NCBI RefSeq assembly: GCF_017183135.1
Contig: NZ_JADDXW010000003.1
Location: forward strand, 62,001 to 126,000
Source: Aurantimonas marina
GTDB taxonomy: Bacteria > Pseudomonadota > Alphaproteobacteria > Rhizobiales > Rhizobiaceae
Length of the DNA: 64,000 bases
Direction: 5' to 3'
Both the position numbers and the translations under genes were made by a program. The notes under the pieces are model-generated. The model did not search any database, was not told where the DNA came from, and saw only the letters and a program-made list of their open reading frames with translations. Positions 60,939 to 64,000 of the stretch are shown one piece after another (position 1 is the stretch's first letter; every line of letters begins with the position of its first letter).

Positions 60939-61952
60939 TCAGCCCTCCATCACCTGCTTGAGGGCGCCGCCGACCCGGGCAGGGCCGGGGAAATAGTCCC
61001 ACTCCTGGGCGTGCGGATAGGGCGTATCCCAACCGGCGACGCGCAGGATCGGGGCTTCGAGGTTATAGAAGCACGCCTCCTCGACCAGCGCGCAGAGTTC
61101 GGCGCCGAAGCCCGAGGTCATCGTCGCCTCGTGGACGACGACGCAGCGGCCGGTCTTCTTCACCGACGTCTCGATCAGTTCCAGATCGAGCGGTACCAGC
61201 GTCCTGAGGTCGATGATTTCGGCGTCGACCTCGGTCATCCGCGCCGCTTCTTTCGCGACATGCACCATGGTGCCGTAGGCCAGAACGGTGACGGCGGCGC
61301 CCTCCCGCCTGACGACCCCCTGGCCGAGCGGCACGCTATAGCGGCCTTCCGGCACCTCACCCAGCGGATGCTTCGACCAGGGCGTGATCGGCTTGTCGTG
61401 ATGGCCGTCGAAGGGGCCGTTGTAGAGCCGTTTCGGCTCCAGGAAGATCACCGGGTCGTTGTCCTCGATCGCCGCGATCAAGAGGCCCTTGGCGTCATAG
61501 GGGTTGGAGGGGACGATGGTCTTCAGGCCGGAGACGTGGGTGAACAGGGCTTCGGGCGACTGCGAATGGGTCTGGCCGCCGAAAATGCCGCCGCCGGTCG
61601 GCATTCTGACGACGAGCGGGGCCGTGAAATCGTTGGCCGAGCGATAGCGCAGCCGCGCAGCCTCCGAAACGATCTGGTCGTAGGCCGGATAGACGTAATC
61701 GGCGAACTGCATCTCGACGACCGGGCGAAGCCCGAAGGCGGCCATGCCGATCGCCGTGCCGACGATGCCGCTTTCGTTGATCGGCGCGTCGAAGCAGCGG
61801 TTCTTGCCGAAGCGCTCCTGCAAGCCCGCCGTGCAGCGAAACACCCCGCCGAAATAGCCGACATCCTCGCCATAGACGACGACGTTGTCATCCTCTTCCA
61901 TCTTGACCGCGTGGGCATCCCGGATCGCCTCGATCATGGTCATGCGCGGCAT
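60939..61952 (-). CDS. bkdA2: branched-chain 2-oxoacid dehydrogenase E1 beta subunit
   Basis: The 337-residue product has VVVYGEDVGYFGGVFRCTAG, the thiamine-diphosphate region NESGIVGTAIGMAAFGLRPV and the C-terminal transketolase domain (VVVHEATMTSGFGAEL). It pairs with E1alpha to decarboxylate 2-oxoisovalerate and relatives from Val/Leu/Ile degradation. In most genomes E1alpha lies directly upstream; here two accessory genes intervene. Confidence 0.95.
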   Translation of the reverse strand: MPRMTMIEAIRDAHAVKMEEDDNVVVYGEDVGYFGGVFRCTAGLQERFGKNRCFDAPINESGIVGTAIGMAAFGLRPVVEMQFADYVYPAYDQIVSEAARLRYRSANDFTAPLVVRMPTGGGIFGGQTHSQSPEALFTHVSGLKTIVPSNPYDAKGLLIAAIEDNDPVIFLEPKRLYNGPFDGHHDKPITPWSKHPLGEVPEGRYSVPLGQGVVRREGAAVTVLAYGTMVHVAKEAARMTEVDAEIIDLRTLVPLDLELIETSVKKTGRCVVVHEATMTSGFGAELCALVEEACFYNLEAPILRVAGWDTPYPHAQEWDYFPGPARVGGALKQVMEG

Positions 61953-61988
61953 AGCATTCCTCCGACACTTCAGGCGACGAAGGCCATC

Positions 61989-62759
61989 CTAGAACAAGCT
62001 GCCCTGTTGGATTTGGTCTAAGCGGATAACGCCGTTAACAAGCCATACATCTGGATATAGGGAATGCGTTCCCATCGCCAAAAGCATTCCCCGCTCGGGG
62101 TACTCTTCACCGAAGACCCGGCAAATCTCGGCAAGTGCTTTTTTCTCCCCATACTCCCGTGACCACTTGAAGAATGTTGCCTCCACCTCCCAGTCTTGAC
62201 AGGTGCCTTCCCGCAAACCGTCCTGAGTACGATAGCGATAACGGAAGAAATATGGGCACGGGTGGTAAGGCGTGACTTCCTTGGCAAACATATCGGACTG
62301 CGATCGGATCACATCGAAGCGACTTTGCTCTTTGGCGAGTTCGGTCTCAGTTTTCTTATCGGCTCTGAATTCGAGAACTTCGGGCTTGAGTAGCGCGAGA
62401 CTACGCCCCTCTTCTCGCTCTTTTGCAAGGCTATGGACAATTGCGTTGGCGAGGAATTTTCCGCGCTCGGAGTGTCGGAGCTTTCCGACAACCTCTAACG
62501 ACTGCTGATCAACGCGGCGGCTCTCGGTTCGTGAATCGTCTGGCGGTCTCCGCCATTTGAAGCGTATGCGATCCCACCGACCGAATTTTTGCCTCTCTTC
62601 CAAATGCCTGAACGAGACAGGATAAAGGCGCAACCACCTACCGTAGAGGTCTAGGCCCGCGCAGCAGACCGTCTCTCCATGCCGCTTCCCAACCTGCGGA
62701 GCAGCCTTGATTATCACTATTGCCTCGTCACTCCCCGAGTTAGCGGCTTGCTCCCCCAT
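61989..62759 (-). CDS. protein of unknown function, partner of a DUF488 protein
   Basis: The 256-residue product begins MGEQAANSGSDEAIVIIKAA and is soluble, rich in charged residues. Conserved-looking stretches are VCCAGLDLYGRWLRLYPVSF, WDRIRFKWRRPPDDSRTESR and the C-terminal GMLLAMGTHSLYPDVWLVNG. I recognise no domain. The ATG overlaps the end of the DUF488 gene by 20 bases, so the two are translated together. It is visibly AT-richer than the flanking bkd genes. Upstream frame to 63047 is the shadow of DUF488. Confidence 0.75.
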   Translation of the reverse strand: MGEQAANSGSDEAIVIIKAAPQVGKRHGETVCCAGLDLYGRWLRLYPVSFRHLEERQKFGRWDRIRFKWRRPPDDSRTESRRVDQQSLEVVGKLRHSERGKFLANAIVHSLAKEREEGRSLALLKPEVLEFRADKKTETELAKEQSRFDVIRSQSDMFAKEVTPYHPCPYFFRYRYRTQDGLREGTCQDWEVEATFFKWSREYGEKKALAEICRVFGEEYPERGMLLAMGTHSLYPDVWLVNGVIRLDQIQQGSLF

Positions 62760-63243
62760 TCGCTCTCCCTGCAACCGGCCGCGACTTTCCGCGATCTTCC
62801 ACAACTGCAATATGCACAATATTGAAGCCACCTTCACGCGCCAAGTGGTTAGCCACGATGCTGCGATGGCAATTTTCATGATGCTTCTCGAAGCAAAGCA
62901 GGGTGGCCGTCCTACCAGAGGCCACTTCAATGCATTTACGCATATCTGCCTGCGCCCTATCCGAACGGAGATGATCTGCGAAGATTGCTCGGAATTCCCC
63001 GTACCGGCCGGCGCGAGCAGCCTCGCGTCCAGGCTTTGGATCTCCAAGGCCCTTTAAATGGAGATATTCGATCGATTTTTCCGCAAGACGGTCGGAGAGC
63101 GCCTTCTTTGAAAAGCCACGCTTACGAGAAATGGGCACATCGCGAACATCTATGAGGAGGTCGACGCCTGCATACCCCAAAGATTCGAGGAAGCTTTCAA
63201 TCGAAACTCCCTCATATCCGATCGTGAAAAGCTGATCAGCCAT
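62740..63243 (-). CDS. DUF488 family protein
   Basis: The 167-residue product has the DUF488 pattern: LFTIGYEGVSIESFLESL, LLIDVRDVPISRKRGFSKKA, YLHLKGLGDPKPGREAARAG and the C-terminal LLCFEKHHENCHRSIVANHL, whose Cys and His residues form the family signature. Function of DUF488 is not established. It is inserted between E1alpha and E1beta with the partner gene, same strand, with AT-richer sequence. ATG 63243 follows GAGGA. Confidence 0.88.
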   Translation of the reverse strand: MADQLFTIGYEGVSIESFLESLGYAGVDLLIDVRDVPISRKRGFSKKALSDRLAEKSIEYLHLKGLGDPKPGREAARAGRYGEFRAIFADHLRSDRAQADMRKCIEVASGRTATLLCFEKHHENCHRSIVANHLAREGGFNIVHIAVVEDRGKSRPVAGRANGGASR

Positions 63244-63364
63244 AAATCCTCGCTCAACATGCCAATGTCCCAGTTATTTCCGGTGGACCATTAGCAAGAC
63301 TGGATTTGATTCGTGGGGCACGCGAGCAACAGCGACAGAGCTGTTTATCAGCCTCAATGGTCGA

Positions 63365-64000
<636 letters not shown>

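Follow-up and report, generated by a model that had tools for sequence, protein, structure and literature searches.

The Gene Pair and Its Operon

The window, i.e., the whole 64,000-nucleotide stretch of Aurantimonas marina DNA that was analyzed, carries two adjoining genes inside a 2-oxoacid dehydrogenase operon. The upstream gene, A (62740-63243, minus strand), encodes a DUF488 protein of 167 residues (Pfam PF04343, E 1e-29; PF22751, E 1.7e-6), which is a short form resembling PDC-M19A. The downstream gene, B (61989-62759, minus strand), encodes a 256-residue protein with an AF2-predicted tandem OB fold, matched by the PADLOC model PDC-M19B and by PHROG phrog_25907. The two open reading frames overlap by 20 bp (62740-62759, minus strand). 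Upstream lies the C-terminal part of E1α (63365-64000, minus strand), which runs past the window end and, when read on a locus extended beyond the window, is intact with 410 residues; downstream, after a gap of 36 bp from B, follows the likewise intact E1β (60939-61952, minus strand). This arrangement agrees with the preliminary description, which had placed a DUF488 gene and a 256-residue protein, overlapping by 20 bases, on the same strand between the two subunits. Its assignment of the surrounding genes to a 2-oxoacid dehydrogenase operon stands, whereas the branched-chain type is a plausible reading, with E1 and E2 scoring below the NCBIfam pyruvate-dehydrogenase cut-offs.

The whole insert, from the E1β start to the E1α stop (61953-63364, no strand assigned), is delimited by the E1 spacing in relatives and by its base composition. 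Its 1412 bp have a GC content of 0.538, compared with 0.65 for the window, and an equally low value is found in a fraction of 0.0008 of 1252 sliding 1412-bp windows. The GC3 values follow the same trend (0.52 for A and 0.60 for B vs 0.87 for E1β), so that the AT-richness noted earlier is borne out. Neither a sigma-70-like promoter nor a terminator-like site was detected on scanning 61900-63450, which fits read-through from the operon; the pair is presumably transcribed from the operon promoter. Transposition or site-specific insertion was considered as the route of entry and rejected: the insert is not bounded by direct repeats, and apart from A and B it has no open frame, so that none suggests a recombinase.

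Empty Site in Related Genomes

A search with E1β in 29 genomes returned 19 matches at E 1e-90, the window's own among them. In all 18 other genomes the E1α end lies 4 to 304 bp (measured between match ends) ahead of E1β, and the pair is absent there because this spacing is short in every case. The closest two relatives are G006, whose E1β is 97% identical over its full length, and G004, whose E1β lies at a contig end and is 98% identical over 283 residues. The E1α-E1β spacer of G006 measures 232 bp, and B was found nowhere in either of these two genomes. The comparison with the empty operon called for at the outset thus identifies A and B as an insertion in this operon, and the pair would have been acquired once this lineage had diverged from its close relatives, probably being read with the operon since.

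B is scarce around the window's own genome. A search of 60 genomes, this one included, gave eight matches, two of them merely at E 3.6e-4, and within the genus B occurs in one of the seven other genomes (G005), in a copy 35% identical that begins about 150 bp past a tRNA-Thr gene.

Coupling of the Two Genes

Relatives of B were collected as the best 80 of 133 in genome contigs together with 32 viral contigs, giving 112 alphaproteobacterial or viral loci. Profile searches place A immediately upstream of B, in the same orientation, at 109 of these 112 loci, which are not fully independent (L096/L140 and L059/L121 share gene order and seem to be the same element). A match to A is missing at L064, L065 and L079, and the B gene of L065 is broken over two frames. 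At L005/L009 (G048:C2:34192-34925) B is likewise split over two frames, with a recombinase and a DNA-methylase-like gene nearby as judged by eye.

In a class-wide sample of 241 genomes, the window's own included, B occurs in nine, and A adjoins it in 9/9. The A profile gives 58 matches in 53 of the 241 genomes, and nine of the 58 adjoin B. Among the strongest B-less matches (at least 149 bits), 15 of 17 were fetched; A was recovered in 11 of them, none adjoining B, and not recovered in four. B is therefore rarely found without A, whereas DUF488 mostly occurs without B, and the question whether the two families live mostly apart has a different answer for each partner.

A tblastn search with B also found 25 plasmid records and seven Gordonia phage records, of which 16 plasmids and one phage were opened. 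A adjoins B in 14 of these 17 loci, from Proteobacteria, Actinobacteria, Cyanobacteria and Archaea, in four arrangements. The two genes are convergent in nine (Gordonia phage, Rhizobium pRL8, Massilia, Burkholderia, Streptomyces, Arthrobacter, Pseudochrobactrum, Pseudomonas and Paraburkholderia), ordered A-then-B in two (Sulfitobacter and Azospirillum) and B-then-A in two cyanobacteria, and in one Saccharolobus plasmid a fused A (ParB_N, HTH_ParB and DUF488) adjoins B. The three loci without A comprise two truncated B genes (L186 and L192) and pSOG2. The partnership is thus kept while the gene order changes among lineages, which argues for a joint function. Collectively, these counts uphold the earlier claim that the coupled pair moves as a unit.

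The fused gene of the Saccharolobus plasmid pBEU9E1 (L177:2927-3976), directly upstream of B, is labeled a ParB/RepB/Spo0J family partition protein. The gene right after the archaeal B (L177:4852-5343 and L190:4840-5346) looks by eye like a PD-(D/E)XK nuclease and has no Pfam match. A search for archaeal-type ParB-DUF488 fusions in the viral contigs matched three stretches, none of which was confirmed.

Protein A

Protein A passes the PF04343 gathering score with 104 bits against a cut-off of 22.2. Across 87 rows, 21 alignment columns are invariant, among them Y10, D32, R34, K46 and the cluster C117, E119, C125, H126 and R127, which forms a C-x-E-x5-C-H-R stretch (residues 117-127; 62863-62895, minus strand). 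In the predicted model, an alpha/beta structure with a pLDDT of 91.7, several of the invariant residues fall at strand ends and helix starts, a placement that suggests an active site. A tetrapyrrole-methylase-like fold was considered for A (Z 9.6, rmsd 3.1, 115 aligned residues; best Foldseek E 1.3e-3) and set aside as a guide to function, the chemistry not being readable from the fold. Sequence searches gave no solved relative of A or B at meaningful E-values, and an established DUF488 activity was not found in the literature searched.

Protein B

No Pfam or NCBIfam family matches protein B at an E below 0.098, in line with the earlier statement that it lacks a recognizable domain; that statement falls short on structure and motifs, where B has a predicted tandem OB fold and clamp-motif-like peptides. 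Its matches are to PADLOC PDC-M19B (E 1.7e-32) and to phrog_25907, a family of unknown function (E 8.8e-31). The AF2 model, built from 91 sequences, has a mean pLDDT of 91.9, and its strand pattern fits two OB barrels. Foldseek returned seven matches at E ≤0.001 (the best at 1.1e-4), all of them CST or telomere-end-binding OB proteins; their TM-scores are low (0.13-0.31). By VIA-align, the N-terminal part resembles RecO (Z 8.4, rmsd 3.4, 87 aligned) and archaeal RPA (Z 8.4, rmsd 2.6, 81 aligned), and residues 103-252 resemble RMI1 (Z 7.8, rmsd 4.0, 112 aligned), all with middling Z values near the background of 7-8. Two divergent members match the Pfam Dual OB family (DuOB, PF22557) weakly, at E 0.002 and with 18.6 and 18.7 bits, below the cut-off of 27; the B of the window has no match to this family.

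Clamp-Motif-like Peptides

Residues Q154, Q252 and L255 of B are at least 90% conserved in 91 sequences and mark two short peptides that resemble clamp-binding motifs. One, QSDMF (residues 154-158; 62286-62300, minus strand), lies in a flexible loop, its block having a pLDDT of 73; the other, QGSLF (residues 252-256; 61992-62006, minus strand), forms the C-terminus, with a pLDDT of 55. In excerpts of PMC11139829, the clamp-binding motif is given as Q-phi-x-[L/M]-[F/L] or the hexamer Q-phi-x-[L/M]-x-[F/L], with phi aliphatic, located in tails or loops, and its second position is described as tolerant with Leu favored.

Both peptides were counted in 104 distinct B proteins, the window's included, which are related by descent, so that the counts are not independent. 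In a loose form, Q-x-x-[LMI]-[FL] or a hexamer at the tail, the motif is present at the tail of 90 of the 104 proteins (72 pentamers and 18 hexamers) and in the loop (positions 135-190) of 82, with seven pentamers elsewhere. Shuffled sequences gave a mean of 1.3 (maximum 6) at the tail and 5.0 (maximum 11) in the loop, and 6 of 810 neighboring open reading frames carry the loose tail form. It is missing from 14 tails and 22 loops, and the two Sulfolobales B proteins have neither peptide. The filler residues differ (QLSLF, QPTLF, QSSLF, QPDLF) around constant Q, L and F, and an exact QADMF is found in four B homologues.

The strict form is less frequent. With A, V, L, I or M as phi, it occurs in 39 tails and 18 loops of the 104 (shuffle maxima 3 and 6), and 46 proteins have at least one strict motif in tail or loop (shuffle maximum 8). 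With L, I or V alone, the counts fall to 22 tails and 5 loops (shuffle maxima 2 and 6), the loop count being no better than that of shuffled sequences. The tail signal is therefore strong, and the loop signal is strong in the loose form only. The B of the window shows the loose form at both places and no strict motif, because Ser and Gly occupy the second position of its peptides; this protein would be a weak clamp binder, if it is a binder at all. The lack of a strict motif in the window's B, together with a loop count at the level of shuffled sequences, slightly lowers the confidence in the clamp-docking module preferred below and in its extension to a new mechanistic class.

Genomic Context

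Recurrent phage genes occur within eight genes of the pair in 34 of the 112 loci (10 of 80 genome loci and 24 of 32 viral ones). The recurrent families, each named from one representative, are ParB-like/DNA-methylase (31 loci), the small and large terminase subunits, portal and a RuvC-like resolvase, and in many phages the pair sits between the ParB/DNA-methylase gene and the terminase. Elsewhere, single housekeeping genes adjoin the pair, such as those for ThiC, phosphoglucose isomerase, a FHIPEP-family protein and PmbA/TldD. Of the Pfam domains matched by the nearest neighbors, the PmbA/TldD metallopeptidase domains are the most frequent (6 of 129 genes); judged by gene size, they seem to flank the pair at L093, L101 and L109 (a MAG and two Methylocystis). 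In the Gordonia phage, the immunity repressor gene lies on the same strand as B and shares 1 bp with it, with an integrase near; genes at such positions are generally expressed in lysogens, and B may be as well.

The pair is present on phages and plasmids alike. Plasmid neighbors include RadC with SSB, SSB, a toprim protein, and RecT with a LexA-family regulator, and other plasmid copies sit among metal-resistance genes. On a Pseudomonas plasmid, a HEPN/Toprim protein (L188:5437-6732; Pfam E 3e-54) adjoins the convergent pair. According to an excerpt of PMC9674854, a DUF488 protein also lies near RadC and helicases on Methanoperedens plasmids. In the B tree, the set that contains the window is supported (96/81) and has 46 rows, of which 24 are chromosomal and 20 phage-context; the five rows closest to the window by path are all phage-context.

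A comparison of near and far neighbors by PADLOC at E 1e-15, with crude gene calls and with near genes defined as the nearest ones of 130 to 1000 residues on each side, matched 58 families among 129 near genes against 8 families (4 names) among 130 far genes. Each of the 25 near-gene families listed was matched in one member; they carry eight different system names, which may represent fewer than eight proteins. Defence models are thus not clearly enriched near the pair in this test. Control by the SOS response was examined as a further candidate and rejected: in the 300 bp preceding A, GTTC-N7-GTTC is present at 1 of 110 loci (shuffle mean 0.88), two palindromic variants in 0 of 110, and CTG-N10-CAG in 6 of 110 against a shuffle mean of 9.

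Relation to Catalogued Systems

The preliminary description regarded the pair as a good candidate for an undescribed system. This view needs correcting, since PADLOC-DB already lists PDC-M19, a candidate two-gene phage-defence system whose M19A and M19B models match the adjoining A and B of the window as well as divergent phage, plasmid and archaeal members. The match of A (E 1.3e-31) covers positions 149-289 of the 294-position profile, i.e., its C-terminal half, and the window protein lacks about 150 N-terminal residues of the model. These residues are present in a 303-residue form from G041 (L006:571-1479), which gives a full PDC-M19A match; frames of 303-304 residues containing A also occur in G080, G097 and G246. 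If full length is taken as the mark of M19A, which is a reading of the profile and not a stated PADLOC rule, the A of the window falls short of it. The PDC entries are described as unpublished candidates in PMC11811056 and as unvalidated in PMC12988326, and PDC-M19 was not found by name in the main text of the literature searched. The pair is therefore catalogued as a candidate, yet unexplained. A defence role, one of those suggested earlier, is a fair guess because PADLOC-DB lists PDC-M19A/B.

Several known proteins offer partial comparisons. The A of the window belongs to DUF488 (PF04343). An archaeal "DUF488-HTH" fusion bound CTP, according to PMC12704722; the Saccharolobus A is a fusion of similar kind, which may differ from the protein of that source, whereas the A of the window stands alone. 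Pol III alpha has an OB domain along with two clamp motifs, one internal (QADMF) and one at the C-terminus (excerpts of PMC11139829), and B is likewise motif-like at both places; unlike Pol III alpha, B is no polymerase, and the peptides of the window lack the preferred second residue. SocB and RipA, clamp-targeting accessory proteins in the excerpted descriptions of PMC12795458 and PMC9690074, would resemble B in their target, whereas B has DUF488 as its partner and is predicted to contain two OB folds. A clamp-binding motif joined with anti-phage activity was not found in the literature searched. The names DuOB and DUF488-N3a suggest an earlier domain classification, and a published prediction of the A-B pairing may therefore exist.

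Possible Function of the Pair

The reading that we tentatively prefer, and consider possible if somewhat short of probable, is that of a mobile two-protein module in which a single-strand DNA-binding B docks on the sliding clamp and brings the DUF488 enzyme to replicating DNA, perhaps to keep out rivals. As a tandem-OB protein, B would be a single-strand nucleic-acid-binding adaptor, docking on the bacterial clamp via its internal-loop and C-terminal peptides, and A would be an enzyme, recruited by B to clamp-loaded or single-stranded DNA at the replication fork. We infer clamp docking, catalysis, the DNA substrate and the exclusion of rivals from the predicted folds, conserved residues, peptides and gene context described above. 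On phages and plasmids the pair may handle replicating DNA, and in a chromosome or prophage it most likely would interfere with incoming elements as they replicate. An exclusion role of this kind is favored by the position in the immunity region and by the PADLOC listing, whereas the terminase/ParB position and some of the plasmid neighbors favor a role in replication or repair.

The latter observations are the core of a competing explanation that we regard as rather unlikely, in which the pair, instead of being a weapon, assists phages and plasmids in replication, repair or anti-restriction, and the copies in chromosomes are stranded cargo that is retained for DNA repair. The recurrent phage place between ParB/DNA-methylase and terminase, the plasmid neighbors RadC, SSB, toprim protein, RecT and LexA-family regulator, and the weak defence-island signal all point in this direction; the patchy distribution (9 of 241 genomes of the class), the immunity-region position in the Gordonia phage, the PDC-M19 listing and the plasmid copies among metal-resistance genes speak against it. 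Quite improbable is a toxin-antitoxin-like arrangement in which B (or A) would poison the clamp as SocB does, with the partner restraining it. The clamp-motif-like peptides of B are compatible with this idea, as are SocB and RipA themselves, clamp-targeting toxins in the excerpts of PMC12795458 and PMC9690074, and the submitter's note on the A gene of a Gordonia phage (gene 42: "HipA toxin, toxin-antitoxin system?"). The strongly conserved, enzyme-like residue set of A, the frequency of B-less DUF488 genes, and the three loci at which B, broken in one case, has no A argue otherwise. With regard to this gene 42 (phage Nymphadora, L176:5810-6262), it matches DUF488 at Pfam E 1.2e-29, and its HipA label is likely a misannotation.

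A neutral or metabolic insert, either serving the 2-oxoacid dehydrogenase or being chance cargo without a selected function, is highly improbable: the pair does lie inside the operon, on the same strand and with no terminator-like site between, but the operon of relatives lacks it, homologues occupy unrelated places, and frames and residues are conserved across large divergence.

An extension of the preferred clamp-docking module, unlikely as a whole, would make it a new mechanistic class in which a dual-OB protein hooks DUF488 to the clamp and thereby lets the replication machinery itself mark the target DNA; Sulfolobales would use a PCNA-box-like tail instead, and ParB-type DNA-loading proteins would be upstream partners. 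The tail of archaeal B, which we take to be PCNA-box-like from two 78%-identical sequences and the Dpo4 motif, is a lead at most.

Should the pair be a replisome-riding module, it would open a mechanistic approach to DUF488, a widespread family, and a B that is a clamp-docking single-strand binder would narrow the substrate question to DNA at replication forks. Docking would, moreover, be directly testable through the two five-residue peptides, and it would give a listed, unexplained defence candidate a concrete mechanism. As for other members of the DUF488 family, the DUF488-N3a subfamily is matched in 9 of 14 control genomes, above the cut-off in five. The window's own genome, in which B is single-copy, carries a second gene (L193, G000:C16:22952-23278) whose match to DUF488-N3a is stronger than that of A.
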